The notes beneath the pieces are model-generated. The model worked only from the letters and a program-made list of their open reading frames with translations, ran no database searches and had not been told where the DNA came from. The position numbers were made by a program, and so were the translations under genes. Shown here piece after piece: positions 1-19,460 of a stretch of DNA of 23,043 bases (position 1 is the stretch's first letter; each line of letters starts with the position of its first letter). The stretch is taken from positions 1 through 23,043 of the IMG/VR virus record IMGVR_UViG_3300037325_000438; one strand, written 5' to 3'. Origin of the DNA: a virus.

Positions 1-268
1 TTATTGAGAGATAGGCTGAAGTTGTGCTCAGTATTTTAATAATAGCGGGTAACCTCTTATCTAAAAGAGGTTCATTAATCCCGAAAGGCGAAACTCTTCC
101 CTTAAAATTTAGAGTTTTTAACTGGCTAGCGATAAACTCAATAGTCGCCATACTCAACTCGACCAAAGGCTCTTTCTCCTCTTCTATTCCAAACTTACAA
201 AAATAGCATTTTCTCGTACAGATATTCACTGTTTCGAGTAAAACAACCTGGAATAAAGAACTCTTCAT
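1..268 (-). CDS. Radical SAM enzyme, N-terminal 89 residues (cut by left edge)
   Basis: Reading leftward from ATG at 268, the frame stays open to the window edge for 89 residues. Residues 17-24 read CTRKCYFC, the C-x3-C-x2-C motif (Cys17, Cys21, Cys24) that holds the 4Fe-4S cluster of radical SAM enzymes, followed by KFG. Around residues 63-71 comes FGINEPLLD, matching the conserved G-x-EPLL segment after the second strand of MoaA/SPASM-type radical SAM barrels. These enzymes cleave S-adenosylmethionine to a 5'-deoxyadenosyl radical; the substrate here cannot be told because most of the barrel and any C-terminal SPASM domain lie outside. The ATG is 4 nt past the stop of the glycosyltransferase gene, so the two are very probably co-transcribed. 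No good ribosome-binding site sits at ideal spacing (a purine-rich stretch lies about 16 nt upstream). The family is fairly sure, the function is not. Confidence 0.78.
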   Translation of the reverse strand, partial: MKSSLFQVVLLETVNICTRKCYFCKFGIEEEKEPLVELSMATIEFIASQLKTLNFKGRVSPFGINEPLLDKRLPAIIKILSTTSAYLSI

Positions 269-272
269 AAGA

Positions 273-1328
273 CTAAAACGGATGCTCCTTAGTGTTATTT
301 AAGGCCATCCAAGTAGCGGCCTTACGATGGAGGCAAGACTCTTCTCCAAACCAACTTTCCCAAAGGCCCGTACCTAGCTCCCCAATAAAAGGTCCCTCTA
401 TCCCCGCGTATAGTTTATTGTCTTGGACGGTGAGAGCCGTATAGGTTAAACTTTTATTTGTGAGAGGTGTATTTAAAAAGCACGTAAAGCCAACGTCTCT
501 ATAGGGTTTCTGGTTTGTAGTACATATAGCTCCTTTAAACCCCACGCTAGTAAGCTCTAAGGCTAGCTGCTCTCTGTCGTTATTTCCGCTATCCATAACC
601 ACGGTAAAGAGATGAGCCTTAAGGGGCTTGTCTATTGATGGGTGGGTGATCATCCAGCCCTCTTTTAAGTTAGATTGCTTAAATACTATATCTGCAAAAA
701 TAGGCGACCAAGGCTCAGGGGTAACTTTTAAGGTAGTTCCGATATACCTGATAAGTAGGGTATCGTCGGCTAAGAATGTTATCCCATCACCGTTTCGATA
801 GGTATCTCGGTAATTTTTATTATCGAGGGTAACTAACCTTTCAAGAGTTTCGCGACTATACCCACTAGAGCCTCCCGAGCAGCCCACTCCTAAGGGTTTT
901 AGGTCGTAGAGAAAGCCAAACCAGTCAGCTGCGATAGGCCTTACCTCTTCCATTATCTGGTTATCTGGGTCTAGCCGACAGATCCAGCGAGTCTCCATCC
1001 ATCTTAAAGCAAACTTCCACCTATCGAACATGTACTGGTCTCCATATTCGAGGGTTTTAGGGCTGTCGGAAAAGTCAACAAAGTCTAGATTTGGAAGGTA
1101 GGGAAACGACTTAACATTGTCGCCAATAACAAGTATTTTCTGAGAGTTAAACTGCCTTAGTCTTTTAATCATTCTAAGAGCTAAAGCGTAGTCTCCTTCG
1201 CAAACCCAAACTACAAAGGAAAACTCGTCTTTCTTAAGTTGTCGATACTCTTTAACTGGGGTATTTAACCGGTTAATACTTAGGTTACTATTCAAGGCTA
1301 GGTGGTCCACTGGTAGAAGGAGATCCAA
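273..1328 (-). CDS. Glycosyltransferase, GT-A fold, with extra C-terminal domain
   Basis: A protein of up to 351 residues. The N-terminal part looks like a nucleotide-sugar glycosyltransferase of GT-A type. A first beta strand (SFVVWVCEGD, residues 37-46) is followed by a helix and a second strand (ILVIGD, 65-70). RLDPDNQI then carries a DxD-type metal/nucleotide-binding motif (Asp120-Pro-Asp122), GCSGGSSGYS lies at 149-158, and an acidic pair ADD at 187-189 is a candidate catalytic site. Histidines at about 229 and 239 could complete metal binding. Residues from about 240 to 351 form a second region I do not recognise. The longest frame starts at TTG 1328 and overlaps the upstream gene by 31 nt; GTG 1310 or TTG 1295 (2 nt after the upstream stop) are alternatives, and no ATG precedes the first strand. 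It lies between tail-fibre genes and a radical SAM gene, so modification of a virion protein or of host surface sugar is the natural guess. Family moderately sure; acceptor unknown. Confidence 0.65.
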   Translation of the reverse strand: MDLLLPVDHLALNSNLSINRLNTPVKEYRQLKKDEFSFVVWVCEGDYALALRMIKRLRQFNSQKILVIGDNVKSFPYLPNLDFVDFSDSPKTLEYGDQYMFDRWKFALRWMETRWICRLDPDNQIMEEVRPIAADWFGFLYDLKPLGVGCSGGSSGYSRETLERLVTLDNKNYRDTYRNGDGITFLADDTLLIRYIGTTLKVTPEPWSPIFADIVFKQSNLKEGWMITHPSIDKPLKAHLFTVVMDSGNNDREQLALELTSVGFKGAICTTNQKPYRDVGFTCFLNTPLTNKSLTYTALTVQDNKLYAGIEGPFIGELGTGLWESWFGEESCLHRKAATWMALNNTKEHPF

Positions 1329-1750
1329 CCGTTAGCGCCTATCTGTCCGGTCTTATCAACTCCTACAAAAAGAAGGGCGCTGCCAACCGTCCCATACTGG
1401 ACGTCTACGGTCAGATAAAAGTATATATCCGTTTTACCATCGGTTTGAGGATCAACCGTCGGAGGAAAGGCCGTGGGATTTGTCGTCCCCGCTCGAATTT
1501 GAGTTGGCCCTACGGCGGCAAAAGCAAACTGAAACCACCGACCCGGGCTAGTTGTAGGCTCTACGATTTGAGGGAGAGCTTCAACATCGGTACTTGTCTC
1601 TTTATAGTAATACCAATCGGGTGAGCCGTCGCCTCTATCCGCTACGGCCATAAAGATGCCGTCGGCAATAGCAGGAGTGGAAAGAGTAGTTAGCTCTTTA
1701 AGGGCAGCGATATCAGGCACTACCATTTTTTCATAATATGGAGCAGGCAT
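1298..1750 (-). CDS. Small tail-fibre-associated protein (hypothetical virion protein)
   Basis: A 150-residue protein with no signal peptide or membrane segment. Residues about 28-75 contain DGIFMAVADRGDGSPDWYYY and, later, SPGRWFQF. This pattern (a value field, an aromatic cluster, then GRW) recurs in small domains at the ends of phage tail fibres, but I cannot name a family. The rest is Thr/Gly-rich and probably all-beta (DIYFYLTVDVQYG). The ATG at 1750 has an AGGAT ribosome-binding site about 8 nt upstream, which supports this start. The gene follows the 694-aa tip protein by 11 nt and its 3' end overlaps the longest form of the glycosyltransferase gene. A fibre cap or attachment protein is likely, by context only. 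Confidence 0.7.
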   Translation of the reverse strand: MPAPYYEKMVVPDIAALKELTTLSTPAIADGIFMAVADRGDGSPDWYYYKETSTDVEALPQIVEPTTSPGRWFQFAFAAVGPTQIRAGTTNPTAFPPTVDPQTDGKTDIYFYLTVDVQYGTVGSALLFVGVDKTGQIGANGWISFYQWTT

Positions 1751-1761
1751 GTTTGTTTATC

Positions 1762-3846
1762 CTATAAGAAAGTTAAAGGGTCGTTGACAGCATCGGTTAG
1801 AACATCTCCGTTAACGTCGGTTATAGCGTTTGCGGTACCTCCGGAAGGTGTCGTTCCTCCTCCTCCAGAAATCTTAACAAACCGACCAGCGCCATTTAGG
1901 ACGCTGAGATAGGTATCTCCGTTAACCGTCTGGGTATTCTCTAGCTGGTACATATAAAGTGCTGGGAGATTACTCTGAGCCGTAACTACTGGGTAGATAG
2001 CCTTATTAGTCAGCAAATAGGCGCTTACATTGGATAAGCCATTTCGAGTATTTATTGGAGCTTTCCAGAATATAGAGTTAGCACTTGCCTCTCCTATTTC
2101 TGCCAAGTTGTTTGAGAGCTCATAGACACTACCGTTAGCTATACTGTGGTCGATGTTGGTAACGGTATTACCAGTATAGTTGAAGCTGACAGCAAAGTCA
2201 AAGTAGAAAGTTCCTGCTGTTTTTTGAACTACTAAATTACTAGAAACCAGGTTTGCGGGAGTCCATAGCCCAAACAACTCGGAGGGTATGTCATCGGTAT
2301 AGAGGTTGGCGTCTTCGTAAAGAAAACTAAACTCATCGCTAGTTGTATTTGTTGGAGCAAAGCCTTGAGCTTTTCTAGTTTCTATAATAGCTCCATCTAG
2401 ACTAGCTCGTTTTCTAACAAATAGTACGATTTCCGAAGCGTTGAAAGTGCCCTTAGTTGAAGACGCAATTACGTCCTGAAGAGAAGGTCTAATCTCGTTA
2501 GGGTATATTACTGTAAAAGTAATGTTAGGATTTGGGTTACCTTCAATTTGAGAACTGAAAGAGGTGGCTGCCGATATTCCGGCGAGAGTTGATACTAAAG
2601 CTCTTTGTCTTTCGTTACCGCGTAGGGAGGAAACTGGGTAAACTGACCCTGAAGAATTAATTGCAAGTATTAGGTTATCTTGCTCTCCTTGCAAATTAAG
2701 AACGGTGGAAGGAACAGTGTTTTTAGCAATTCTTCCGTCAATAATCGAAATACCCGTATCCGCAAAAGCTGATAAGCCCGGCAAAGGATAAATTCGTCTT
2801 AAGTTAGGATCATTTCCGATAATAACGTCTCCCAGAAGTTCTCCTAAGTCTGTGGGAGTTCCGGAAGTTGGAATTAGAAAAGGTACGAGATTTAAAGTTG
2901 AATCTAGTGGAGCAAGATTGAGTCCAAAGCCAAGTTCAGAGACATCAAACTCAGGGAAAACCTTGAACTGGAATCCTTGACGAAACTCTAGGTTACGCTC
3001 GAAAACCAAATTCTCCATATCTGAAGAGTAGTCTATCTCTATTGCTAGGTAAGTAAACTGGGCAATCCCATCTCTAAGGGTTATATACTCCTCTTCAATA
3101 GTATCAAAGTACCCTTCAAAAACAATTTTAAATAAACCGTAAAAAAGACTTGATAAATCAGTATCCTGAACAGTGGTTGTAATTCCTAACTGTCGGCCAA
3201 TTGGTACTGGGGTGTCAAGATCGTTGTAGAGCCAGTAGGTCCGAGGTTTACCCTCAACCCCCGTCATTGAATAATCATAGTTAATGACGTGGCGGCTCGG
3301 GCTAATTAGACTTAACGGAGTATCGCACCCGAGCAAGAGGTTAGTGGTGTCATCAATGACCCCCGTATTATACCCATCGTAGTGTCTTTCCCAAACGCTA
3401 AAAAGAGAACGATATTTATAGATGAGCCCATCGTTTGTCCGAGTTATGAGTAGGCCGTTAATTAGATTAGTTGTTGGAAAAGCAGCTGCTTGGCGTTCAG
3501 CTGTAATATGCGTAGGATTAGTTAAAGGTAGAGTATAGGGAAGAGAGATATCGTCCTTTCTTACTACTATAAGAATCTTTGAGGAAGTTAGATCATTTGT
3601 GGTGTTAATGAGAATAGCGTACTCTAACCAGTTCTCACTTCCAACGTGGGCTTGCTCTGGAATAGTTAAAGCTATCCCCTGACTACCGTTTACCGAAATA
3701 CTCGCTACTGGACCGGGGAGGTTATATCCCACATCGTTTCTGCCCTGAAGCCAAAAGTAGTATATCCCCGCAGGAAGAGTTCCTGAAGTAGTATTAGGGG
3801 TTAAAGCACAAAGAGCGGGCCTCCCACTGGCGTATTGAAATCTCAT
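1762..3846 (-). CDS. Large tail tip / fibre protein, 694 aa
   Basis: A 694-residue, Thr/Ser/Asn-rich, beta-dominated protein without membrane segments or enzyme motifs. Residues about 22-55 (PAGIYYFWLQGRNDVGYNLP and what follows) resemble a fibronectin-III-like or carbohydrate-binding beta sandwich, as found at the start of phage tip proteins. The centre holds several acidic beta-rich blocks. The last 40 residues are a Gly-rich linker (SGGGG) ending in ITDVNGDVLTDAVNDPLTFL. The ATG at 3846 comes 2 nt after the stop of a 55-aa gene. Position (after the hub-like protein and before the small fibre protein) and length suit a receptor-binding or central-fibre component. I recognise no named homologue, so the structural role is inferred from composition and neighbours. 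Confidence 0.7.
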   Translation of the reverse strand: MRFQYASGRPALCALTPNTTSGTLPAGIYYFWLQGRNDVGYNLPGPVASISVNGSQGIALTIPEQAHVGSENWLEYAILINTTNDLTSSKILIVVRKDDISLPYTLPLTNPTHITAERQAAAFPTTNLINGLLITRTNDGLIYKYRSLFSVWERHYDGYNTGVIDDTTNLLLGCDTPLSLISPSRHVINYDYSMTGVEGKPRTYWLYNDLDTPVPIGRQLGITTTVQDTDLSSLFYGLFKIVFEGYFDTIEEEYITLRDGIAQFTYLAIEIDYSSDMENLVFERNLEFRQGFQFKVFPEFDVSELGFGLNLAPLDSTLNLVPFLIPTSGTPTDLGELLGDVIIGNDPNLRRIYPLPGLSAFADTGISIIDGRIAKNTVPSTVLNLQGEQDNLILAINSSGSVYPVSSLRGNERQRALVSTLAGISAATSFSSQIEGNPNPNITFTVIYPNEIRPSLQDVIASSTKGTFNASEIVLFVRKRASLDGAIIETRKAQGFAPTNTTSDEFSFLYEDANLYTDDIPSELFGLWTPANLVSSNLVVQKTAGTFYFDFAVSFNYTGNTVTNIDHSIANGSVYELSNNLAEIGEASANSIFWKAPINTRNGLSNVSAYLLTNKAIYPVVTAQSNLPALYMYQLENTQTVNGDTYLSVLNGAGRFVKISGGGGTTPSGGTANAITDVNGDVLTDAVNDPLTFL

Positions 3847-4018: not shown

Positions 4019-6550
4019 TTAGCCTCTCGATCCTGTTTCTTCTTCAACCTCATCTCCTGAAGGATTACGCCGGGTTTTAATCTTCGGAACAATCGAGGTC
4101 CCAAAAATAGGCTTTCCCCTTATAGAAGTTTTAATATCTAGGTCACCGCCGCCATTATCAGAAAGGTTTTTAAAACGCTTTCTCAAGGAAATTGACTTGC
4201 TCCTCATAATACCACAAGTTAAGCTAGTTCCTGAGCAGGTCTTTAGTAATTCCGAGTCCACAAATCCCTGGTAGTCTATTTGAAAACTTAGGCTCTTAAC
4301 TCTTAAGTTTCTCTTTGAACCGTCGTCGACGACCTCTAAATAATCTCCTGGTCTAATTGCCGGATAAAACCAGGCTAGCTTCATAGACATATCAGTAGAC
4401 CCTGAGAAATTTGCTAGTGCCAACTCACAACGGGCGGCGGCAATCGCTAGACCTAAAGATAACGTCTCGTACTGTAAAGACTCACTTGACACAGGAACCT
4501 GGCTACTGCTTGTGGTCGAAATTAAGTATTCAAACTCTTTAGAGTCAGCTTCTTTTTCGTCTTCTTTATCTTTGTCCGAGTCGTGAAACTCATGGCTAAA
4601 AGTTGTAGCGTCAGGCAACTGCCCGGTTGTCGTTCTGAAAGTTTTTTCTTGCAAAGAGTATTGAAAGTTATGATCTTGGTGGCTAGCATCTGATTCATAC
4701 TCTAAGTAAAGGTCCGTTTTTAACCGACTATTACTGCCATACCGTCCAGTGGTATTAGCACTAGGAATTATTTTCCTCAAAGTAGAGCGATAAGTATCTT
4801 CCCCAGTTGTTAAAGAGGGCAGTAGCTTCAAACCCTTTAACTCTTCCTTTTTCTCAGCCGCGCTTAGGCTATCGTCGTTTGAAACCTCCTCTCTATCCTG
4901 TCTCACATAGATATTTTGAGGATGGTCAATCTGGTCAAAACTCTGAGTTAACGATCTCTCTTCCAAAACCTTAAGTGGAAAGGTATACGCTGGGTCGGGG
5001 ATAGCGATTAAGACACTGCCCTCCCCCTTCTGGCCAATACTTTCTTTAGTTACAAACTGAGTTTGAAAAGGAGCCTGCTGTATATCCTTATAGATATCTG
5101 TTGCCGGAACTAAGTAATACTGGGTTATCGACTTAAAGGGTATTTTTTTAAAAGTAATTGTCTTTAGCTGGGCTTTAGCATAGGCTAAGTCTATCGTATC
5201 ATCGGGTGTGGGGCTAGGGGTGTTGGTTAGCTCAAGGATTTCGTCTCTGAGCCAACGAGAATCTAGCGAATTTGAGTCTGTCCCCGCTTCATCGAACTGT
5301 TCTTGCTGAAACCTTGCTAATTTCCAACCCTCCGTTCTTATCTCCGTTAGGTACGTTGAATTAAATAGGGAAGAGCCAACTACTTGACCAGTGTATGTTT
5401 TACCGTCTTTATCTTTACCCGTAACGGTAGCACTCACGTTTGCCGATTGGTAAATATATTCGGTAGTTTGAGTTTCAATTAACTGCCACCACTCTTCTGG
5501 TTCATCTGACTTAAGAGCAGGCACACTAATATCAGAGGTTTCGTCCTCAGCTTCAGGATTTCGGAGGTCCTGGGCCATATAGACAAACCCGTAAGTGTCA
5601 ATTCTCTCTTTAGACGGTTGCCCGTTTAAGGTTGTCGTAGTTTTAGTAGTTTTTCGAGGCCCACTAAAATCAAAGTTCATGTCGATAGTTCTTAGCTTTC
5701 GAACATCGTTTGGGGGCTTAGTTGGTTTGAGGTCCCCTTCGAGAGTGACAAGTCTAACGGGGGCCTTTCTACGTCGGTTATCTCCAAACTGGTCCTTTAG
5801 AGATTCTTTTTTCTTCAAGCCTTCGATAAATGGTAAGCCCCCTTTACCAGATAAAGTCGTGTTTAGGTACTCGGCCTCTTGCTGTTTAGAGACATCGATA
5901 GAGTAAAGGATATCGTGGCTAGAAACACTCCACTTACTTCCAGCTAGGTAGTTCCGACTTCTAACTGTCCGCCCCGTCCAGTCTAATACCTGAGCTTTAA
6001 GTCTCAGGTTTTCCTGGATTATGGAAGAGAAGGTGGTCTTAAAAGAACCCGAATCTTTGGGGATATCCTTGATGTACGAGTAGCCTGAATAAGATATTCC
6101 TACCGCCCCAGCTACCGAGGCGGCATTCAGCTTTCCATTAATAGTTAGATTGGGACCAAAGCTTATTGCATCTTTAACAGAGGTTCTAACTTCCACAGAA
6201 GCACTAGACCTTATTTCGTTACCCCCTCTGAGATTTATGGATAGGTTGTAGACCCTAATTTGGGAACCCGGAGAAACACTAATTAAGTCTTCTGTTTCGG
6301 AGTACGAAGATATCTCAAAGTATAGGGTGTCTAGTAAGACTAGCTTTTTACCAATAACATTATACGTAGTTCGGTACTGCTGAATTTCTTCTTCAGAAAT
6401 ACTCTCAATAGAAATTGAACCCTGGGGCTGTCCTTCAAAGCTTAATGAAACCGACAAGCTTCCCTTAAAAATAGGCAAAGGCAAACCTTCAAAATTTGCA
6501 TTGCTTAATCTATTTGACTTAGGGTTTGAGCTTATTCCGAAGACAGCCAT
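4019..6550 (-). CDS. Tail hub / tip structural protein, 843 aa
   Basis: An 843-residue protein lying after the small virion proteins and before the tip genes. The N-terminal about 240 residues are beta-rich (VSLSFEGQPQGSISIESIS), and the middle is strongly charged (RRRKAPVRLV, DKDKEDEKEADSKEFEY). Near residues 725-765 comes AWFYPAIRPGDYLEVVDDGS followed by LRVKSLSFQIDY. This 'PGD-x-x-x-V ... RV-x-x-x' arrangement is typical of the C-terminal part of phage hub/Tal-type proteins (gpD/gp27/gp44-like). The C-terminus is basic and then acidic (VEEETGSRG). No peptidase or lysozyme motif is visible. The ATG at 6550 lacks a clear Shine-Dalgarno site; a candidate leftward promoter lies just upstream. 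The hub call rests on one motif, size and position. Confidence 0.6.
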   Translation of the reverse strand: MAVFGISSNPKSNRLSNANFEGLPLPIFKGSLSVSLSFEGQPQGSISIESISEEEIQQYRTTYNVIGKKLVLLDTLYFEISSYSETEDLISVSPGSQIRVYNLSINLRGGNEIRSSASVEVRTSVKDAISFGPNLTINGKLNAASVAGAVGISYSGYSYIKDIPKDSGSFKTTFSSIIQENLRLKAQVLDWTGRTVRSRNYLAGSKWSVSSHDILYSIDVSKQQEAEYLNTTLSGKGGLPFIEGLKKKESLKDQFGDNRRRKAPVRLVTLEGDLKPTKPPNDVRKLRTIDMNFDFSGPRKTTKTTTTLNGQPSKERIDTYGFVYMAQDLRNPEAEDETSDISVPALKSDEPEEWWQLIETQTTEYIYQSANVSATVTGKDKDGKTYTGQVVGSSLFNSTYLTEIRTEGWKLARFQQEQFDEAGTDSNSLDSRWLRDEILELTNTPSPTPDDTIDLAYAKAQLKTITFKKIPFKSITQYYLVPATDIYKDIQQAPFQTQFVTKESIGQKGEGSVLIAIPDPAYTFPLKVLEERSLTQSFDQIDHPQNIYVRQDREEVSNDDSLSAAEKKEELKGLKLLPSLTTGEDTYRSTLRKIIPSANTTGRYGSNSRLKTDLYLEYESDASHQDHNFQYSLQEKTFRTTTGQLPDATTFSHEFHDSDKDKEDEKEADSKEFEYLISTTSSSQVPVSSESLQYETLSLGLAIAAARCELALANFSGSTDMSMKLAWFYPAIRPGDYLEVVDDGSKRNLRVKSLSFQIDYQGFVDSELLKTCSGTSLTCGIMRSKSISLRKRFKNLSDNGGGDLDIKTSIRGKPIFGTSIVPKIKTRRNPSGDEVEEETGSRG

Positions 6551-6571: not shown

Positions 6572-6600
6572 AATACTATCACTTTTACATTATATGTCAA
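6572..6600 (-). promoter_or_regulatory. Candidate leftward sigma70-type promoter before hub gene
   Basis: On the minus strand TTGACA (6600-6595) is followed by a 16-nt spacer and TAGTAT (6578-6573), which gives a transcript starting about 15 nt ahead of the hub ATG at 6550. The -35 box is a perfect consensus and the -10 matches 4 of 6. The box overlaps the ATG region of the rightward gene at 6594. On the plus strand a TATAAT (6559-6564) could be the -10 of a rightward promoter, but no good -35 accompanies it. Short AT-rich DNA yields such boxes by chance, hence the modest confidence. Confidence 0.35.
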
Positions 6601-6983
6601 TTACCTTTAACGACGTAACACTAAGAAATACTATTGGAGACTCAATTATTTCTAGGCTGGCTGCGGGTACTGCAAATGCAACAGCTAGGTTGGTCTTTAG
6701 AACTTCTGCAAACGTTGTACTGGCTACAGCAAACTGTACTGCCCCTCCCACAGGTTCTTTTGATGAAGGAACTGTGACCTTCTCTGCAATCGCTGATGCT
6801 CCTATTGTAGCGACTGGGGTTGTCACAAATTTTCAAGCGATTAACCGAGATGCGGTAGTCATTTTTTCAGGTAGCGTTACTCCAATTGGCGGTAGTGGAA
6901 ATATCACTTTTAACTTAGTTAGCTGGGTTGATGGTGACCTTATTAGGCTTAATTCCCTAACCCTTACTATTCCTGGGGCTTAA
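6594..6983 (+). CDS. Beta-rich virion-type protein on the opposite strand, 129 aa
   Basis: A 129-residue protein read rightward inside a leftward operon. The order of segments follows a phage protein family I know as short unknown virion proteins: N-terminal helix (DSIISRLAAG), a strand with ARLVFRTS, LATANCTAP, GTVTFSAIADAP-x-x-ATGV, a strand with AVVIFSGSV, then DGDLIRLNSLTLTIPGA ending in 'tLTIPGA'. Family members carry 'lRIYsG...LLa.l.l', 'atGtA-wFRv', 'v-dGsvg' and 'sftlt-pA' at the same places. No TM segment or signal peptide. No Shine-Dalgarno site precedes ATG 6594. It is convergent with the 84-aa gene (3 nt between stops) and divergent from the hub gene. The reverse strand here has only short alternative frames, which supports the rightward reading. 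Role: decoration or fibre-associated protein, uncertain. Confidence 0.68.
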   Translation: MSITFNDVTLRNTIGDSIISRLAAGTANATARLVFRTSANVVLATANCTAPPTGSFDEGTVTFSAIADAPIVATGVVTNFQAINRDAVVIFSGSVTPIGGSGNITFNLVSWVDGDLIRLNSLTLTIPGA

Positions 6984-8639: not shown

Positions 8640-9770
8640 TCAGTTAGTGATATGACCAGTTCCCACAAGCTCTATGGGGCTAGTCAAGTCTCCACTTCCC
8701 GACACAGGAATAAAGCCTGTTCCGGTGACCTCGACGTTATTAAGCGGTAAGCTTCCTGTACCTATATTCAAAGAGGAACCAAGACCAGTTGCACTTGGAC
8801 TCAAGGTTGCCAAAGAACCTCCTCCTAGCATGACTCGATTATTAGCTCCTTCCCCAACCAGACTAATAATTGGCGTGGCTAGTAGGCCCGAACCAAGTCT
8901 AATTGCGCCTGCTAATCCGCTTCCAAACAATGCTCCGTTAACAGGAGTTAGGTTTCCTGAACCCTTTGAAATCCGTACTAGTCTGCCTTGGCCCGAAAAC
9001 AAAACAGGTCTGATAAAAATCTGGCTCTGACTAACCGTCTCGATAAAGTAGTTACCTAGAGCCCCAATAGTAAAAAATAGATCGCCTGAAGTATTTACTA
9101 AGTTACTTTCTTCTAAAATATTGGAGTAAGTAAAACCTTGTCCTTTATGTGTGAAGTAGGTTACAAACGAGATGCCGAGCCCCGTCTTGGAAAAGAAACT
9201 AACCTCGTTAGCCTGAACAGTTGGGTTTGGATACTCCATGTCTAGAGTAATTGTAGCGAGGGAACCAACTCTTGGAATACAAGATTTAGACTCACTAAGA
9301 ATAGTGACAACTCCGTTGGTTTGAACGAAAGCTGACTGTAGCCCTCCCGAAGAGATTGCGGTAACAGGAAACTCAAAGTAGCCAAAGTCAAACGAGTTAG
9401 TAACGGTAACCGTTATTTTTTGAGTGTAAGTTCTCTTACCTAAATTAGAAATAGCGTAGGTGTTTCCGTCTCTCCAAAAATAAGTATTGTTACCTAAATT
9501 ATTTACAGATAGAACTCGGGTTAACCCCGTAATACTCCATTCACCAAGAAGGGTGAAGAGATAAGCCTCTACTACCGGAGTTAATACCGTAGTCGTGTCC
9601 TCGACTACAACCGGGCTATCAAAGACTAAAGCTGGAGCCGGGTCATTTCTCGCTAGGCCTGGTTTAACCTTAAAGAACGGGCACGCTAAGTTTAGATCCC
9701 CAATATCCGTAAGACGAAGATTTGAGGAAGAAGCCGCCAAGCTAATTGTTCTGTTAATATTCCAGGTCAT
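8640..9770 (-). CDS. Gly-x-Gly repeat tail fibre / adhesin protein, 376 aa
   Basis: A 376-residue protein. Residues 1-250 are beta-rich without a recognisable domain (TQKITVTVTNSFDFGYFEFP and others). From residue 260 a repeat region begins in which Gly-x-Gly turns recur at 260, 270, 283, 293, 306, 316, 329, 337, 350, 358 and 370, ten short and long segments alternating. This looks like a beta-solenoid or interleaved trimeric beta fibre, as in phage adhesins built on glycine turns. No signal peptide or TM segment. The ATG at 9770 is 1 nt past the upstream stop. The gene ends in UGA, followed in frame by a Trp-rich extension (separate entry). A host-range fibre or tip adhesin is likely; the exact partner is unknown. 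Confidence 0.68.
   Translation of the reverse strand: MTWNINRTISLAASSSNLRLTDIGDLNLACPFFKVKPGLARNDPAPALVFDSPVVVEDTTTVLTPVVEAYLFTLLGEWSITGLTRVLSVNNLGNNTYFWRDGNTYAISNLGKRTYTQKITVTVTNSFDFGYFEFPVTAISSGGLQSAFVQTNGVVTILSESKSCIPRVGSLATITLDMEYPNPTVQANEVSFFSKTGLGISFVTYFTHKGQGFTYSNILEESNLVNTSGDLFFTIGALGNYFIETVSQSQIFIRPVLFSGQGRLVRISKGSGNLTPVNGALFGSGLAGAIRLGSGLLATPIISLVGEGANNRVMLGGGSLATLSPSATGLGSSLNIGTGSLPLNNVEVTGTGFIPVSGSGDLTSPIELVGTGHITN
8655..8993 (-). repeat. Coding repeat: alternating Gly-x-Gly turns (11 copies)
   Basis: The last 117 codons of the 376-aa fibre gene encode eleven Gly-x-Gly tripeptides spaced 10, 13, 10, 13, 10, 13, 8, 13, 8 and 12 residues apart. The basic unit is therefore a pair of segments of about 23 residues, shrinking to 21 at the end. 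The residues between are hydrophobic and polar in alternation, typical of short beta strands. The DNA itself is not obviously repeated, so the unit is old and kept by selection on the protein. Confidence 0.75.
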
Positions 9771-9771
9771 A

Positions 9772-10236
9772 CTAAAACCACTTGGGGTCAGGCGAAACTA
9801 TTCTTAGCTCTACCGTATCGAATACCTCAGTCGGGTTAGGCTCAAAGTTTCGAAAGAGAGAAACAGGGGCTTTAATAGGGGGCTGAATATAGAGACTGTT
9901 TAACTCCGTTCCCTTATAGTATAAAGCCAAGCTACCCCGACCCGTAGTTCTAACATTATTCAGAAAGTCGGTCCTTGCAAAATTGGTGATAATAGTTAAG
10001 TCTGCTTGAGTAACCGCGTAGAGAGTTATGTTGAACTCGGTCATGCTGGCGCTGATATCACGGGTAAAACTTTGGTACTTGATAGTAATTGATTTACCTG
10101 CATCCGCTTGTTCCACCTGAATATCGTCAGGGCCAAGAGCAAAGATTAATTCAGGGTTTACTGGAAAGATAAGGGCTTGTTGTAGCCCGTAACCTTGGCA
10201 AATTTGTGAGTAGTAAGGAGGCGGTTGAAGGGGCAT
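9772..10236 (-). CDS. Distal-tail-like minor tail protein, 154 aa
   Basis: A 154-residue protein directly downstream of the tape-measure gene (stop and start 2 nt apart). The sequence has a beta-rich body (KSITIKYQSFTRDISASMTEFNITLYAV) and a C-terminal strand pair (TVELRIVSPDPKWF). This size and place are those of the phage protein that caps the tube end and connects to the hub (Dit or gpM/gpL-like). No diagnostic motif is seen, so the assignment rests on gene order. The ATG at 10236 is supported by tight spacing to the tape-measure stop; the next gene begins 1 nt after its stop. No TM segment, two Cys at most. Confidence 0.55.
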   Translation of the reverse strand: MPLQPPPYYSQICQGYGLQQALIFPVNPELIFALGPDDIQVEQADAGKSITIKYQSFTRDISASMTEFNITLYAVTQADLTIITNFARTDFLNNVRTTGRGSLALYYKGTELNSLYIQPPIKAPVSLFRNFEPNPTEVFDTVELRIVSPDPKWF

Positions 10237-10238
10237 GG

Positions 10239-13200
10239 TTACTTGTTTTTATTTATGGAGTAGTCAAACAGCTGGTTTAGACCCGTATAGATAGCTTCTG
10301 AGGCAGCTTTCTGTAGTTCGTCCTTATCTAGTTTACCAGCATCTCCCGAAACCTCGAGAGTAACTTTAATCTCCCCAGACACCGCTGGTTGTTGATTTTG
10401 ACGAGAAGTCCCCTCTCCCCCAACAAACCCTCGGGCACTTGGCATTCCTCCGGTGTTAGCCGAAACGTTAGGAACTCCCCCAGCGTACAGCGTGTTTCGA
10501 AATTGACCTTGCCCCACGCCGAAGTTATTAACTGTGGGCTGAAAGAACTCGCTCTGCATATCTCGAGCTTCCCCCAGAAACTCCCGGCTTAACTGACGGT
10601 CATCCCCTCGTCTTCGAGTAGTTTGAGCAACGGCTAATCTTTGGGTATCCATTTCCTGACTTTGCTTTTGCTCAAACATCTCTTCTTCAGTTCCCGCCAA
10701 TTGCCGAGTAAGACTGAGGTTTCCTTGGTTTAACTCTAAGGTCTGTTGAGCCGCACTAACACTTAGGTCGGCAGCCTGTACAGCCAAAGCAGCAGCGCTC
10801 TTCTCTTCATCGGTAGCATCCTTGCGGGCATTAGTTCTTGCCGCCTCAGCGCGAGCCGTAGCAGCCTCAGATTGAGCTCTTATGATAGCGATTTGGCCTT
10901 CAATAACTGACCGTTCAGCCGCCAACTCTTTTTGAAGTTGCTGAATCTCAAAGACCTTTCTTTCCATTTCTTGTTGCTTGAGAAGGTTATCGAGTTTAGC
11001 TCTTTCTCTTTCTCTCTCAATTCGCTGCTTTCTTCTCTCGTTACGTTCTCCCTGGATAGCCAGATTGTACATAGCGTCGACACTAGAGGCTCTAGAATTG
11101 ACAAGCTCTTGCTGCTTCTGGATAATCGTAGTTTGTTGGTTTAGCAGTTGGGTCTGCTTCTCCAGCCCCTGAATTTGCTGATTTGCACTAAGCTCGGTAG
11201 CTTGCTGATTCAGTTTAATTTGACTAATTTGCTTATCATAACCCGCAATAATTTCATTCTGCTTAGCTAGTTCCACATCAATAGCCGCAGTGTCTTTAGC
11301 CGCAGCTTGTCGGTTTTGAATAGCTGTCATTTGGTCTTTAGCAATTTGCTCGTTCTGTGTTTGAGATTTACCGTTTAAGGTAATCTGATCCTCAATCAGA
11401 GCATTCTGAGTATCAATAGAGGCAATCTGTTGTTTTAGGCCCAGCTTTTCCTGCTCGGTTAGTTTGTTCTCCTCAGAATTTAACAGCTGTCTCTCAAGGA
11501 TTGCCTTATTTCGTAGTCCCTCTAGCTTGCCAAGATTAAGTTGAATACCCTCTTGTTCTAAAGCAATCTCCGTAAGGTTCTGTTGAATCTTAGCATTGGC
11601 AATTTCAAAACCCTGTTCGGCCTCTAGGGTTACCAATCGTTTCTCGGCTATGTCTGTTTGAATACCAGCTTTCTCAACAATATCTCCCGTAACCTTAAGT
11701 TTGTTGGAAAGGAGAGTTGTCTCTAACTCGATAATCGATTTACTAAGGTCTTGCTTGGACTGCTCAGCTTTCTGTAAGTCCGCAACGGTCTTTTGATAAA
11801 TGGTGAACTCATTAAGCTGTTTTTCGTAAGCGGCTTTAGTATAGAAGTCAGTTTGCTCAAGATAAGTCTTGTACAAATCAAGCTCTTGCTGAAGCTGAGT
11901 TTGCTTATTCTTAAAAGAGTTTAAGCTTGCCTGATTTTGAGCTTCGAGCAGGGCTGCTTGGGCCGCTCTATACTGAGAAGTATCTTGTCCGTAAAGTCGG
12001 GCAGTCCTAGCTAACTGGTCTTTTCTAATCTGAATAAGGTTTTCATCAATAACCTCTTGTTCCACAGCTCTTTTCTTTGTTGCTTCAAGACCGGTAAGTC
12101 CTCTATTCTGCTCAAGAACGTCAATCTCTTTAAGAGTACGCTGATTAGAGGCAACCTCTCTTACCCCATATTTTTCTATATCGTCAATACGACGTTGCAT
12201 ATAGGCCGACCACTCAGCGGGGCTATAAATATCTTTAAGGGTAGCTTCAACTCCTCCAGCTGTGATTTCAAGGTTATCGATAATTTCAGTTTTAAGCTTA
12301 TCGGCCATATCCGTATCGATAGTTCCAGCTTCAAGAGCCGCCTCAATTTGCTCTTCAAACTTCCGCACACTGTTTTGTACCTCGTCGACGGTGGCGGGGT
12401 TGCCTGGATCAGCGGTTCTAGCAGCAACGGTAAAGACGTTTTGTAAGCTAGACCCGAGGGCTGCCCCTGCTTGTCTTTGAGCAGCGCTAGTTAGATTAAG
12501 GGTTTCTCCTAAGTCAAACTCACTTTCTTCGATGTCTCCAAAACTATTTTTAAGCTCCTTAACTTGAAAGCCTAGTAAGTCCTTAAACTTAGCTCCGGCT
12601 TCTTCATTTAAGCCCTCAGTCATTTGCTCAAATCGGTCTTTGATAGTTGCCGTATTTTTAGCAGCAGCGTTAACCTCAAGAGTGGCTCCAATAGTGTTAA
12701 TAGACTCTCTATACTTAATCGCTCTATTTCGGTTCTGCTCTAAGAGAATCTGCTGCTGTTCTAAGCTAGCAATTTCCTGCTCAGCCTGCTCTTTAAGAAC
12801 AGGGTTTTCCATGAGCTTAGCATTACCTTCCATCTCCTCTCGCTGCTTATTAATGGAGTCTTGGAGAGTCGCATACTGCTGGTCGTAGAACTCTTTATCC
12901 GCCGCCGTAGCCTCTTGAAGTTCATCGGCTCTTAAAGCCCGTCTTTCTTCAGTTGCTTTTTGTAGTAAAGCTTGAGCTTCGGGAGTAACAAATCCTCCAT
13001 TACTCCACAAACTGGAAGAACGAGTAGTTTCATCAACAAGCTCTTGGTTAGCTCGCTGCATTTCGGTCATAGCTTCTCGATAAGGAGCCTCAATATTAAG
13101 CTGGATTGTCTCTCTCCAAAAGTTTCCAACTTGGCGGATGACGTTCTTAGTATTTTTTCCCCAGTTACCAGCGGCCTCGCCAGATTTTTCGAAGGCTCTT

Positions 13201-16200
13201 CCAATAATCGGAATGCCCGTAGCGAAGTCTTTAATTCTTTGAAAGGTCTCGGGAAAGAGGTTCCCGATTCTATTCAAAACAGCCTTGATAGACCCAAAAA
13301 TAATATCCATGGGTTTTAGAAAGACGTTAACTAAGCCTCCCATTAGCAGTTCCGCCGCAGAGATGAGGGGCCCCCAGAAGCTTCGAATAAATTCCTTCTC
13401 GGGAATAGCCGCAGCTAGTAGTTTCTCTTTTTCTTCCCTGATTCTTTCGATCTCTTTATCTTCATTCGACATTCTTGAGTCGTCAAGTCTAGAGGCGTTA
13501 GCATCGGTTTGAGCTTCTCTATACTCCTTTAAAAGGCCAATCTGCTCTCTCAGGGCCTCACTATTTTCTTCAATTCTTTTTCCAGCTCTTCCGTAAGCGC
13601 TTGTCCACCGGGTAATCCCTGGAATAAGAGTTTCAATTAAAGACTTAAGAAGTAGAAAAGCAGCTACGGCAGCAAGCACCGCAACGGTAATTGGCCCGAA
13701 GGCTGTCCAGAGAAGTCCCAGGGCTCCCGTTAGTATTCCCAGACTAAGAGTAAAGAAGTTTGTCGAAGTTGCCGCAATTCCCGTAACTTTTGTATAGATA
13801 GACTTAGCAAGAATGTTAAGTTTGAACCCACCGGTGTTTCCTTTTACCGCAACACTATTAGCCCCAGTCGCAGCTGTCGAAGCTTTTGTAGCCCCAATTT
13901 GCAAACCAAAGACTTTACCGTTATGGGACTGCATACGGGTGAGATCAGCAAAGCTGCCCGTTAAAACTTTGTTGGTCTTAGCGAGAATTCCTTTCTGCCC
14001 AACGTTTAGCCTCATTTGGTCGAGAACGCCTTTAAAGCTATCTTTGCTCTTAAGGTTTATTCCTTGGAGGCTCTCTTGGGTTTTCTTTAGACCGGCAGCA
14101 TTTTCCTTAAAGGTAGCAAAAACCCCCTGGGCAATCTGGGCCGTGTCATCAAGAGTTCCTGTGTCAACACCAACCGAGCTTAGCCCGGTATAAAGAAGAC
14201 CTTTCGCCCCTTGCTTAATGTCGGCGACCCCTTGACCGGCTTTTTTATCGAGACCCCCGGCCTGAGTATCGGCAATAGTCTCATCAATAGTCTTTTTAAC
14301 ACCGGTCACTCCGTCAGTAACAGTATCTTTAACCTGCTGAAGTCTCTGGTCAAAGGTGTCTTTAACCGCTACCATGTTATCGTCTACGTTTTTCGTAAAC
14401 GTATCAGTGCTAAGTTTGTTAAGCTCTTTTTCGATCTCTTGTAAATACTGAACTGCGGCAGATTTAGTTACGTCAACGTTAGTATCTGTTGTGACAGCAT
14501 TTTCAACGGCGGCTATAACTTGAACAACTCTACTCTCAATACCGTCGAGATTACTTTTTAGTTTAGCTTGTAGACTTTCATCACCGATAGAGGCAATACG
14601 AGTATTTATCGTTACAATTTTAGCAGCAAGTCGATCTTCAAGGTTGTTGTTAAATTGGTAGTTGCTGAGTCTATCTAACCGGGTAGTTGCTCCATCAACA
14701 AATGCCCCAATCTTCTCTTCCAGGGCGTTTTCATCAAACTGGTCAATTCCAGCTTTTTGCTGTAATTCGGTTATTAGAGTTTTTAGCTTTGCTCTAAGAG
14801 TTGTTCCTTTTTGGTCGACTGTCATTATCGAGTTGGTGAGAGTCTCTTCTAACTCAACCTCAATAGTACGATACCCGTCAGCGTCTACTGGGATATCGAA
14901 GGTCGACTCAAAGCCTGTCTTGATCTCTCCTCTTAGAGAGTCAAAAGCCCCTCGGATTGAAGCACCTTCCGAGATGGAAGAGAGAACCCCATCAATCTGA
15001 CGCTCAATAGCTTCGGTAATTCCGGTAGAGTTAATGTCTTGTCCTAACTCTCCCATCTTTTGACCAAAAGTATCTACAAACACTCCCGCTGTGGCGTACA
15101 GCTTTTGAGCTTTTTGCTTAAAGGTAAGGTTAGTATCTTCTAGACTTTCGGCAATATCCTCTTCCAAACGATCAAGAGCTGGAAGAAGAATAGGTCTATC
15201 AGCCTCTTTAACAATGTCCTGGGTCTGGTTGCGAATTTCCGTAGCAACCTTTCTAAGGTTAATCTTCTCGGAGACACTGTTAATTTCATTAATATTTCGT
15301 TTAATAGAGTCGACAATAACAGAAGTGGGCTTGGTAAGGGCTTCTTTAAGTTTGGCAGCTTCTGGCCCAGAAAGGTCGGCTGCGATACTATTAAACGATC
15401 CCTCTAGCGCTTGACCTAAACGATCAAAGCTTCCTGTCATATCTTCGTTATCAAAGTTCTGAAGTTCAAACTCTAGTTTAGCCTTTAAAATTGCGGCTTC
15501 TTCAGGAGCACCAGCGTCACTAAAAGCTTGTGCCATAAGATTTAGCTGATTACCAATAATGGTATTTGTCTTAAGGAGTTGCGCTTGGATATACGCGGAG
15601 TCTAAACCTTCAAGAACTTTATCAAATTCACCACGCGCTTTATTGGCGACTTCGCTTGTATCAAAGTCTAATCGCTCAAATCCTTGGCTTACTGTTGTTT
15701 TTAACTTTAAGAATTCAGTTTCGGTTAGGGCAGTAACGTTAGATAGCCCTTTCTGTAAGCCTTGAGACAAAGCTATATAAGAGGAGGGACTCTTAGCGGC
15801 AACCCCAAGGCCGTCCATACTGGCATTAAAGATCTGGAGCATCTGGTCTCCATTAGCTTTAAAGTAGATATTGGCTTTAGCTAAGTTCTCCTGAATCCCT
15901 TTTGAAAATAGTTCTAGCCCACTACTTGTTTTAAGAGGAGTTTCAATACTCGAAACCAGACTTAGAACCGTAGCTCTTAGTTTCTGTAACTCGGGTTTTG
16001 CTTCGGCATCGGCTTCTTTAAACGCTTCGGCAAAGTACCGGGTAAAAAATGCCTGTCTTCGAGCAAAAGGCACTGTGGTATCAGAAAGAAGGGTATTAAT
16101 CGCCTGCTCTAGCTTAGGCGCGACCTTTTGTACAGACTCTGGTAAAGCCTGTAAACTTACACTTAACGCTTCGCCTAAGGCTTCTCGTCTTTTTATAAAC

Positions 16201-19200
16201 GGTTGATCTAGGTCAGCGGCAATCTTTTGAAGCTCTAAGAGAGTTTTAGACCCCTCCGCCCGCGCCGATTTAGGTAAGTTACCAATAGCTAAGTCAAAAG
16301 CGCTTTTAAGTTTAGCTTCGTACTCTAGCGGAACTTGACTAATTTCAAGCATTCCGCTTTCCATAAGCTTTTGAACTTCGGCTAGTTCACTTTTAACCTT
16401 AGGGGAGAAACCTTCAAAACTCTGGCCAAAGATTAACCTTGTTTTTTGCAGTTTTTGCTGCATGTTTAAAGTGGAGTCGTCCAAGATAGCCGGAATCTGC
16501 TGAAAAGCTTTTTGGGCAATTCGGGCAACTTCGTCGTCCATTGGTCCTAATGTCGCCGTAACAGTTTGAAGAAGGGCTTGCTTTTTCTCTTTTAGAGTTA
16601 GCTCCATATCAGCTAGATTGCGAGTCATACTAGCTCGGGCGTCTTTTAGCACATCGGTCTTAACAAGGTCAAAACCTCCAAAGACTCGACGAACCTCTCC
16701 CTCTAGGCCGTTAAGAAGCTTTTTCTGCTTTTGAAAAGCAATGGGGTCAATAACCTCTAGGCCGGAACCAGCCAGGTCTTTTCGAGCTTTACCTAATCCC
16801 GCTAAGGCCTGCTTGTATCCCTCAATATTCTTGAGGTTAAAGCTCTCCCCTAACACTGTTTTTAGTTTTTCTTGCGTATTTAAGGCTCTTGTCTGCGCTT
16901 CACTCAGAGCCAAAGCCCCGTCCGAGTAGTTGGTTTGAATTCCAACTACGCGTTTCATGGCTTCCCCAAAGTCTTTTTGCTGGAAGATAAGTTGCTTAAG
17001 AACTTTTCCTTCTTTAATAAGTTGGCCCGTAAACAGCAAGTGCATTATTCGGGCGGTAATAGCCGTAAGGATAAGGTTTTTAACCATCCCGGCAAAGATA
17101 CCGCCGATATCGGTAACTTTACTTATTCCAACCTGAAGGGCCACAATTCCGCCGATCATTGCTTTTACGGGTTCTGGTAGATTTTGGAGAATATCCAACA
17201 TCTTACTTAAGAAAGCTACACCAGGCTCTAGGAGAGCATCAACAATTTGCTGGTTAGCTAGCCCCGCCATAGCCTCATTAAAGCCATTCATTAGCGCGGT
17301 CATTCTCTGAACCATGCTTTGCTGTCTGTCGCCAAACACTTGGTCTAGGGAGCCCTCTTGAGCATTAGCCACGCGCTCTGTTGTTTGAGCAGCAGCCCCG
17401 GCCGAAACCGTCATAAGGTTAAGCGCCGTGTTAAAAGCTAAGCTGTCAGGAATGATTTCTTTAAGGATGCTAGCGTTACCGTTAGTCGCAACGTAGAGGT
17501 CATTCAGACTTGCTAAAAGGCCTTTTGTTTTAATGCTGTTAACGTCAAACTGAATACCTAAAGCTTTAACCGCTTTTTCAGCTTCGGCACCTTGACCAGC
17601 AATGGCGTTCATTAAAGAAGCAAAACCTGTCATGGCGTCGTCGGCTGTCATAACTTTCGTTAGAGCAGAAACAGAACCAAAGGTTTCGTCGATACTCACT
17701 CCCGTAGCTCTAGCAACCGAAGATACTCGACCTAGGCCACCCGCAAGTTGGTCAAAGGTTACCTGACCATCTTCAACGATAGCGTACATCTTAGCTGCGG
17801 TTGTACCGGCTTCGAGGTTACTTAGCTTATAGACGTTAGTAACTTTAGCTAGAGTGTCGAGAGTTTGGGCTGAGTTAGCTCCCGATCCAGAAGCTAGTTT
17901 CAAAGCAGCTTCCATAAAGGTTGCTGATTGTGAGACGTCTAGGGTCGAGGTACTAAGGCCATCCACCTCTCGGGTAACAACTCCAATACCGGCCGAAATC
18001 GTGTTGTAGAAGGCGTCTGTAGCAGCCACAGAGGTAACGGCATTCTTTAGAGGGCCATTAACCAGCTCTTGCATAGCTGTAGTAATCCCTTCAATACCGA
18101 GCTGGGATCCAGCACTCAGAGTTGTTACAAAGGCTGCTTGGTCTTCTAGTTGGGCATAAGCTGCAATAGCGGCTTGACCAAAAGCCTTAGCCGCATCAGC
18201 ACTAAACAGAAGTTTTTCACCAACAATACCGAACTGAAAAGCAATTTCGGCAGCCTGGGTGCTAACTCCAATACTCTGCATCGCCGAGAAGGCATCATTA
18301 AGGCCCGCCTGTCGTAAAGCTGCATCGGTAATTGCGGCTCCAATAGTTTTAAATGTTTGAACGAGGATTATGATATCCCCTGCGGCCAAAACAACCTGAG
18401 CTAAACTTTTAAGAAAGCCATTCTGTAAATTTTTGTCGGCTTCTTTAGCAGCTTTTTGAGTGTTTTGCCAAGGAGATTGATTCTGAAGCTGTGTGGTGAA
18501 CTCCTGAGCTTTACCACTGGCTAGCCCAAAACCAGAAGCTACGGTTCCGCCCATAACGGCCGCTAACTCTTTAGCGCCCATACCTGCTAAATAGGTGCTC
18601 CCGGCGAAATCCGCCATTTGAACACCAAAGGCCGCTTGCTTAAACTTCTTACCTGCGATTTCAACGCCGTCTCCGATACCTCGCGTTGAGTCTGCTAATT
18701 TCTGAAACTTAGCCGGGTCAATCTTATCACTAGATTTAGCAATTTCGGTTCCAGCGACTCCAAGGATTGCTCCAATTCCTCCCAACTGGTTAGCGATTAG
18801 TCGTCCAGCAATGCTCTGTTGAGCAAGTTTCTGAATGACCTTTTCGATACCCAGACTCAGAGAGCTAAGAGCCCCCCCTGCTACTCTAAGACTGCTTTGA
18901 GCAACCGTAGCTACGATAGTTCCAAAGTTTTGAAAAGCCTTGGATAGGGTAACAAGCTGGTGCCCCATAAACTTGAAAGTTCGAGTTACCGGGTCCGCCA
19001 CGGCATTAAGAATAACGAAGGCCCTTTCAGTGTTAGAAGTTGCATCAGCAATCTCCATAAAGAAGCCCCCCATGGGACTAATGAGGGCATTAGTTAAACT
19101 TACATGCTTTTGAACTCCTACTAGCTTTAGAGCTAAACCTGCAATTCCCGACTCCATTGCCGAGAGACTTTCATTAGCCGTAATGATCGACTTTCCGAAA

Positions 19201-19460
19201 CCCAGGGTATCGCTATAGGCCCCCTTAGTTTGGTTGTTCCAAGTCTTAATAGCCCCAACCGAAGCTAAAAGATTATCCGACATTGTCTTAACAGACTCGC
19301 CAGTTGTCTTTGTAGCTTTATTAAAGGGGCTAATGTTATCACTAGACTTTTTAATCTCCTTAGAGAGCCCTGACATTGCCTTTCCAGCAGTCTCGAGGAG
19401 CTTCGTTAGGGTATCTTTACCCTGGAGATTAAAAGTAGCAGAAGTTGAAAAGTTAGTCAT
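10239..19460 (-). CDS. Tape-measure protein, 3,073 aa
   Basis: Sets tail length and fills the tail tube until DNA ejection. Residues about 450-780 resemble the TP901/PhageMin_Tail core (TLAKVTNVYKLSNLEAGTTA, GVSIDETFGSVSALTKVM, then NLPEPVKAMIGGIVALQVGI). Residues about 900-1750 are helical, with degenerate repeats. A hydrophobic stretch at about 1898-1948 (SLGILTGALGLLWTAFGPI then VAVLAAVAAFLLLKSL) and a second at about 2027-2058 are candidate membrane-insertion segments. From about 2190 to 2950 the protein is a Gln/Glu-rich coiled coil, and the C-terminus has a small beta/helix end. With about 0.15 nm per residue, the usual estimate, the tail would be near 460 nm. The ATG at 19460 shares TAATG with the preceding stop. 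No lysozyme or peptidase motif was found. The family call is secure by size, composition and position. Confidence 0.93.
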   Translation of the reverse strand: MTNFSTSATFNLQGKDTLTKLLETAGKAMSGLSKEIKKSSDNISPFNKATKTTGESVKTMSDNLLASVGAIKTWNNQTKGAYSDTLGFGKSIITANESLSAMESGIAGLALKLVGVQKHVSLTNALISPMGGFFMEIADATSNTERAFVILNAVADPVTRTFKFMGHQLVTLSKAFQNFGTIVATVAQSSLRVAGGALSSLSLGIEKVIQKLAQQSIAGRLIANQLGGIGAILGVAGTEIAKSSDKIDPAKFQKLADSTRGIGDGVEIAGKKFKQAAFGVQMADFAGSTYLAGMGAKELAAVMGGTVASGFGLASGKAQEFTTQLQNQSPWQNTQKAAKEADKNLQNGFLKSLAQVVLAAGDIIILVQTFKTIGAAITDAALRQAGLNDAFSAMQSIGVSTQAAEIAFQFGIVGEKLLFSADAAKAFGQAAIAAYAQLEDQAAFVTTLSAGSQLGIEGITTAMQELVNGPLKNAVTSVAATDAFYNTISAGIGVVTREVDGLSTSTLDVSQSATFMEAALKLASGSGANSAQTLDTLAKVTNVYKLSNLEAGTTAAKMYAIVEDGQVTFDQLAGGLGRVSSVARATGVSIDETFGSVSALTKVMTADDAMTGFASLMNAIAGQGAEAEKAVKALGIQFDVNSIKTKGLLASLNDLYVATNGNASILKEIIPDSLAFNTALNLMTVSAGAAAQTTERVANAQEGSLDQVFGDRQQSMVQRMTALMNGFNEAMAGLANQQIVDALLEPGVAFLSKMLDILQNLPEPVKAMIGGIVALQVGISKVTDIGGIFAGMVKNLILTAITARIMHLLFTGQLIKEGKVLKQLIFQQKDFGEAMKRVVGIQTNYSDGALALSEAQTRALNTQEKLKTVLGESFNLKNIEGYKQALAGLGKARKDLAGSGLEVIDPIAFQKQKKLLNGLEGEVRRVFGGFDLVKTDVLKDARASMTRNLADMELTLKEKKQALLQTVTATLGPMDDEVARIAQKAFQQIPAILDDSTLNMQQKLQKTRLIFGQSFEGFSPKVKSELAEVQKLMESGMLEISQVPLEYEAKLKSAFDLAIGNLPKSARAEGSKTLLELQKIAADLDQPFIKRREALGEALSVSLQALPESVQKVAPKLEQAINTLLSDTTVPFARRQAFFTRYFAEAFKEADAEAKPELQKLRATVLSLVSSIETPLKTSSGLELFSKGIQENLAKANIYFKANGDQMLQIFNASMDGLGVAAKSPSSYIALSQGLQKGLSNVTALTETEFLKLKTTVSQGFERLDFDTSEVANKARGEFDKVLEGLDSAYIQAQLLKTNTIIGNQLNLMAQAFSDAGAPEEAAILKAKLEFELQNFDNEDMTGSFDRLGQALEGSFNSIAADLSGPEAAKLKEALTKPTSVIVDSIKRNINEINSVSEKINLRKVATEIRNQTQDIVKEADRPILLPALDRLEEDIAESLEDTNLTFKQKAQKLYATAGVFVDTFGQKMGELGQDINSTGITEAIERQIDGVLSSISEGASIRGAFDSLRGEIKTGFESTFDIPVDADGYRTIEVELEETLTNSIMTVDQKGTTLRAKLKTLITELQQKAGIDQFDENALEEKIGAFVDGATTRLDRLSNYQFNNNLEDRLAAKIVTINTRIASIGDESLQAKLKSNLDGIESRVVQVIAAVENAVTTDTNVDVTKSAAVQYLQEIEKELNKLSTDTFTKNVDDNMVAVKDTFDQRLQQVKDTVTDGVTGVKKTIDETIADTQAGGLDKKAGQGVADIKQGAKGLLYTGLSSVGVDTGTLDDTAQIAQGVFATFKENAAGLKKTQESLQGINLKSKDSFKGVLDQMRLNVGQKGILAKTNKVLTGSFADLTRMQSHNGKVFGLQIGATKASTAATGANSVAVKGNTGGFKLNILAKSIYTKVTGIAATSTNFFTLSLGILTGALGLLWTAFGPITVAVLAAVAAFLLLKSLIETLIPGITRWTSAYGRAGKRIEENSEALREQIGLLKEYREAQTDANASRLDDSRMSNEDKEIERIREEKEKLLAAAIPEKEFIRSFWGPLISAAELLMGGLVNVFLKPMDIIFGSIKAVLNRIGNLFPETFQRIKDFATGIPIIGRAFEKSGEAAGNWGKNTKNVIRQVGNFWRETIQLNIEAPYREAMTEMQRANQELVDETTRSSSLWSNGGFVTPEAQALLQKATEERRALRADELQEATAADKEFYDQQYATLQDSINKQREEMEGNAKLMENPVLKEQAEQEIASLEQQQILLEQNRNRAIKYRESINTIGATLEVNAAAKNTATIKDRFEQMTEGLNEEAGAKFKDLLGFQVKELKNSFGDIEESEFDLGETLNLTSAAQRQAGAALGSSLQNVFTVAARTADPGNPATVDEVQNSVRKFEEQIEAALEAGTIDTDMADKLKTEIIDNLEITAGGVEATLKDIYSPAEWSAYMQRRIDDIEKYGVREVASNQRTLKEIDVLEQNRGLTGLEATKKRAVEQEVIDENLIQIRKDQLARTARLYGQDTSQYRAAQAALLEAQNQASLNSFKNKQTQLQQELDLYKTYLEQTDFYTKAAYEKQLNEFTIYQKTVADLQKAEQSKQDLSKSIIELETTLLSNKLKVTGDIVEKAGIQTDIAEKRLVTLEAEQGFEIANAKIQQNLTEIALEQEGIQLNLGKLEGLRNKAILERQLLNSEENKLTEQEKLGLKQQIASIDTQNALIEDQITLNGKSQTQNEQIAKDQMTAIQNRQAAAKDTAAIDVELAKQNEIIAGYDKQISQIKLNQQATELSANQQIQGLEKQTQLLNQQTTIIQKQQELVNSRASSVDAMYNLAIQGERNERRKQRIERERERAKLDNLLKQQEMERKVFEIQQLQKELAAERSVIEGQIAIIRAQSEAATARAEAARTNARKDATDEEKSAAALAVQAADLSVSAAQQTLELNQGNLSLTRQLAGTEEEMFEQKQSQEMDTQRLAVAQTTRRRGDDRQLSREFLGEARDMQSEFFQPTVNNFGVGQGQFRNTLYAGGVPNVSANTGGMPSARGFVGGEGTSRQNQQPAVSGEIKVTLEVSGDAGKLDKDELQKAASEAIYTGLNQLFDYSINKNK

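Follow-up and report, generated by a model that had tools for sequence, protein, structure and literature searches.

A contig-end radical SAM enzyme gene behind a glycosyltransferase-like gene: a possible glycan-modifying cassette at the end of a tail operon in a relative of cyanobacterial siphoviruses

What a radical SAM enzyme might do at the end of a phage tail operon, and on which substrate it might act, is the question raised by the left edge of the DNA analyzed here (the window, a linear IMG/VR record taken in full, 23,043 bases long). There, a minus-strand frame (268..2; MKSSLFQVVLLETVNICTRKCYFCKFG...FGINEPLLD) runs for 89 aa without a stop from an ATG to the contig edge, where the gene is cut; the 89 codons of this 5' part give the first third of the protein, and the C-terminal two thirds lie beyond the contig end. 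An earlier note had pointed to CTRKCYFC and FGINEPLLD in this frame and to a gap of 4 nt behind a glycosyltransferase gene. Both segments are indeed present, and 4 nt separate the TAG stop of the preceding 351-aa ORF (275-273) from the radical SAM ATG (268-266). A possible ribosome-binding site, AAGGAG (285..290, minus strand), lies within the 3' end of this upstream gene at an unusually long spacing of 16 nt from the ATG.

CTRKCYFC (197..220, minus strand) is a CxxxCxxC [4Fe-4S] motif formed by Cys17, Cys21, and Cys24; it spans residues 17-24 and, in an AF2 model of the fragment, follows a strand at residues 7-10. Comparison with 24 bacterial relatives marked NEPLLD (59..76, minus strand) as the counterpart of the SAM-binding GGEPLL segment, and the three cysteines and the NEP of NEPLLD were invariant in all 24. 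Across all six frames, the window has a single occurrence of the pattern E..N.C...C.[FYM]C, and 200 Markov-simulated windows of the same dinucleotide make-up have none; the bare CxxxCxxC motif was found four times in the window against 0.67 expected. In Pfam, PF04055 matched residues 12-81 (E = 1.4e-4) with 22.5 bits against a whole-domain cut-off of 29.5, only 69 of the 166 profile positions being present in the cut gene. BtrN was the top PDB sequence match by phmmer (E = 6.8e-7, residues 4-78). The AF2 model, made from a 25-sequence alignment (pLDDT 71, pTM 0.62, with low confidence in the cluster loop), contained the first beta/alpha units of the (beta/alpha)6 partial TIM barrel that characterises radical SAM enzymes, the remainder of which lies past the contig end. 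Foldseek ranked two BtrN chains first (probability 1.00, TM 0.73 and 0.68), followed by ThiH, TokK, and HydE, all of which are radical SAM enzymes; no Foldseek match reached E <= 0.001, the lowest E being 0.007. PHROGs holds several radical SAM families, none of which matched the fragment better than E = 0.14. Together, these sequence and fold matches support the radical SAM call, and we consider it nearly certain that the fragment is the N-terminal third, a half-barrel, of a genuine radical SAM enzyme.

BtrN (2-deoxy-scyllo-inosamine dehydrogenase, PDB 4M7S/4M7T) is the best match of the fragment in both sequence and fold, the comparison covering the N-terminal third only, and the two are alike in the spacing and near-equal position of the cysteines and in the EPLL segment. 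Cys17/21/24 of the fragment align with the cluster cysteines C16/C20/C23 of BtrN (PMC9012708). Since BtrN carries a twitch domain (PMC9012708) and the bacterial relatives scanned at full length carry Radical_SAM and SPASM domains, the enzyme probably belongs to the SPASM/twitch class, a guess made from these relatives. The C-terminal cysteine-rich domain of that class, which binds one or more auxiliary clusters (in BtrN a twitch cluster with four Cys), would fall in the part past the contig end. Function cannot be transferred, since the relatives share only about 30-45% identity with the fragment, that is, in the N-terminal part. No genes of the BtrN pathway (DOI synthase, aminotransferase) were recognised among the scanned ORFs of the window, whose end cuts off whatever lies downstream of the gene.

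The full-length bacterial proteins range from 235 to about 330 aa, and the closest of them are encoded among glycan-related genes. Plasmid pHS1 of Sodalis praecaptivus encodes a radical SAM/SPASM protein of 235 aa that is 31% identical to the fragment; its gene lies directly behind that of a glycosyltransferase, with 2-deoxy-scyllo-inosose synthase and a PIG-L deacetylase nearby. This order is that of the window, although the Sodalis transferase is of the GT4 type, unlike that of the window. In Lachnospiraceae, the neighbors of the relatives include DUF6044 membrane proteins, an acyltransferase, a GT17 protein, a GDSL esterase, and FAD oxidoreductases (GT17 protein at locus L048; acyltransferase at L083; DUF6044 membrane protein and GDSL esterase at L015); this set was gathered with a query built partly from one of its members and does not reveal the closest clade. 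The Lachnospiraceae and Sodalis genes are cellular, whereas that of the window is viral, and the three cysteines and NEP are common to both. Relatives were few in a Bacillota sample: of its 299 genomes, 3 had one at E <= 1e-4. The Sodalis region as a whole (pHS1 390424-400705, locus L100) appears to be an aminocyclitol-type cluster, with genes for 2-deoxy-scyllo-inosose synthase, a PIG-L deacetylase, a glycosyltransferase, the BtrN-like radical SAM/SPASM protein, and an ABC exporter. The only match filed as a phage, MT835743.1 (L002; GenBank 'Bacteriophage sp.', from human faeces), was rejected as a phage relative and used as a bacterial relative only. By eye, its genes include V-ATPase-like, methionine-ABC-transporter-like, and LysR-like ones, so that the record is probably a bacterial contig filed under phages by mistake.

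The neighbors of the gene in the window have their homologues among the tail-end proteins of cyanobacterial siphoviruses, in agreement with the phage tail operon that had been proposed. They are all on the minus strand: a 150-aa tail-end protein (1298..1750; part of phrog_31840, 39% identical to positions 9675-10079 of the IMG/VR contig L120), a 694-aa tail-fibre-region protein (1762..3846; phrog_31840, with homologues in PaV-LD, CL131, and Nodularia phages), an 843-aa tail protein (4019..6550; phrog_15468, with homologues in PaV-LD, CL131, and Pseudanabaena phages), and a 3073-aa protein (10239..19460) that is tape-measure-like by length and position. The last had no Pfam match and has a partial homologue at the start of contig L118. 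Identities of the 843-aa and 694-aa proteins to their homologues in Planktothrix PaV-LD, Aphanizomenon CL131, and the Nodularia and Pseudanabaena phages were 21-29%, and further IMG/VR contigs encode homologues as well. Judged from these sequences, the contig is distantly related to cyanobacterial siphoviruses (PaV-LD, CL131, Nodularia phages), and, since the homologues of its tail proteins occur in cyanobacterial phages, its host is probably a cyanobacterium.

The end of this operon differs among the relatives. In L120, a 689-aa tail protein, a 145-aa protein, and a transferase-like ORF follow one another and match window positions 1762-3846, 1298-1750, and 273-1328, respectively; the transferase-like gene thus has the same place as in the window, but it is the last in the row, with no radical SAM gene behind it. 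Next come a short helix-turn-helix-like gene, on the opposite strand, and the prohead and capsid genes. The layout of CL131 is the same, except that the slot is occupied by a different gene, gp036; in Nodularia phage kac68v161, the place behind the tail gene is taken by a ConA-like lectin. With contents that differ among L120, CL131, and kac68v161, the end of the tail operon is thus a variable slot, and since the L120 transferase has no radical SAM gene behind it, the radical SAM gene of the window is an added accessory cassette. That gene is absent from PaV-LD, CL131, kac68v161, and L120, all of which have tail proteins homologous to those of the window, and a search of phage relatives as whole records for radical SAM genes yielded none but one QueE-like gene (G009/L095). 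Searches of IMG/VR with the fragment alone, with the fragment plus one relative, and with a four-sequence alignment found no viral relatives of the fragment; four matches to the motif pattern were discarded as chance, their frames being broken by stops. The fragment has 36.3% G+C against 43.7%, placing it in the lowest 1.4% of the window's 267-bp stretches, and this low value agrees with a recent gain, although 267 bases are few. Both in L120 (10767-11084, minus strand) and in CL131 (gp037), the tail operon is set off from the prohead and capsid genes by a short opposite-strand regulator.

The 351-aa protein immediately upstream (273..1328, minus strand) had been called a glycosyltransferase. 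Its TTG start is uncertain and overlaps the preceding gene by 31 nt. It had no family match in Pfam (E <= 5), PHROGs, or PDB, direct searches for relatives in IMG/VR, phages, plasmids, and PDB returned none, and a single-sequence AF2 model was unusable (pLDDT 36). It does, however, contain LDPD (963..974, minus strand), a candidate DxD metal/nucleotide-sugar motif that is identical in the L120 homologue; the two proteins are about 26% identical, with FSF..WVC, LDPD, and DWFG in common. The L120 protein, in turn, has a weak match to Glycos_transf_2 (PF00535, E = 0.0079). On the strength of the LDPD motif, its retention in L120, and the weak match of that homologue, we call the product glycosyltransferase-like, of the GT-A type by motif.

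We lean, by a little, toward the explanation that a cyanobacterial siphovirus carries, where its late tail operon ends, an accessory cassette for a radical SAM enzyme that is near BtrN, most likely belongs to the SPASM/twitch class, and has a glycan role together with the transferase. The glycan role is suggested by the bacterial relatives in Sodalis pHS1 and the Lachnospiraceae neighborhoods; adjacency gives weak guidance as to substrate, and we regard the chances of glycan-directed action together with the transferase, taken by itself, as evenly balanced. In such a system, the enzyme would be translated together with the transferase, and its [4Fe-4S] cluster would reduce SAM to give a 5'-deoxyadenosyl radical, which would take a hydrogen from a sugar or cyclitol. 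An auxiliary cluster could then accept the second electron, as in BtrN-like dehydrogenation, or the radical could be rearranged; the neighboring transferase would add or process the same glycan. The outcome might be an altered host envelope, and so superinfection exclusion, or a decorated tail or virion. Of the substrates named in the earlier note, a sugar or glycan best fits the neighborhood, whereas a peptide or a modified base found no support. A more specific version, in which a BtrN-like dehydrogenase and the transferase make an oxidised sugar or cyclitol, otherwise absent from the host, that is put on the tail or envelope, strikes us as rather unlikely; if true, radical chemistry would be serving phage glycan disguise.

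Radical SAM genes inside phage structural operons had been described as uncommon. For phages as a whole, that wording is too strong: pelagimyophage genomes differ by radical SAM cassettes in a host-recognition cluster with tail fibres and glycosyltransferases (PMC7029224), and 12 radical SAM genes have been counted in one T4-like marine viral genome (PMC5332604). It does appear to hold within this cyanophage group. The pelagimyophage cassettes resemble the present one in lying in the tail-fibre region with glycosyltransferases, a likeness drawn from their description, but pelagimyophages are T4-like myophages of SAR11, whereas the window comes from a relative of cyanobacterial siphoviruses. 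A phage radical SAM gene beside tail-fibre and glycosyltransferase genes is therefore already known, and no other example was found at this locus in this phage group. With the window, the glycan-modifying cassettes seen at phage host-recognition loci would reach a siphovirus lineage of cyanobacteria as well. The genes for a GT-A-like transferase and a BtrN/SPASM-like radical SAM enzyme are, moreover, a concrete pair for which a substrate could be looked for. In the cited literature, phage radical SAM genes were listed rather than tested.

A less probable explanation, which we nevertheless take seriously, is that the enzyme has nothing to do with the transferase and instead matures a peptide or protein, or acts on a small molecule, its gene having been brought in independently where the tail operon is variable. 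The N-terminal half resembles many radical SAM families, and the NCBIfam matches of the fragment were weak and scattered over Tes, HydE, MqnE, and W_rSAM; the transferase of L120, which stands without a radical SAM gene, shows that the pair is separable. Nevertheless, the best matches are BtrN and the Sodalis protein encoded behind a glycosyltransferase, which argues against this explanation. It is improbable that the gene is a functionless remnant, decayed or left at the contig end: the cut by the contig end and the long distance from the possible ribosome-binding site to the ATG would fit such a remnant, but all 89 codons are open, the cluster cysteines and NEP are kept, and the start lies 4 nt past the previous stop. 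A chimeric assembly, in which bacterial DNA was joined to the phage contig at its left end, is still harder to credit, given the phage precedent for radical SAM cassettes beside tail-fibre genes (PMC7029224). The low G+C at the very edge and the lack of viral relatives in the collections at the sensitivity used would fit a chimera; the reading direction and the 4-nt spacing, however, exactly continue the tail operon. We see almost no chance that the gene is a phage copy of a viperin-like defence enzyme or of a nucleotide enzyme (QueE, NrdG). The radical SAM N-terminal half is common to all of these, and the bacterial relatives have weak viperin_w_prok matches (about 1e-6), which would fit such a copy. 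However, PADLOC gave no match even at E <= 1, all three are absent from the NCBIfam matches of the fragment, the QueE cluster motif is CX14CX2C with QueD/QueC neighbors, and the fragment has CX3CX2C with tail genes as its visible neighbors.

The QueE-like protein of G009/L095 was rejected as a counterpart of the fragment, being distinct and unrelated to the window locus. It is encoded in a 96 kb PaV-LD relative (IMG/VR 3300042396_000723), where QueE-like, QueD-like, and FolE-like genes are consecutive, a preQ0-type pathway.

Two ORFs in the tail operon of the window are switched to the plus strand. One, of 129 aa (6594-6983), opposes an overlapping minus-strand ORF (6590-6826). The other, of 221 aa (20601-21266), overlaps ORF 20189-20662 head-on by about 60 nt and matches phrog_335, annotated as a phosphatase (E = 3.5e-14); by eye, its product is a macrodomain-like ADP-ribose-1''-phosphatase (NSTVKDNGKLVMGAG).
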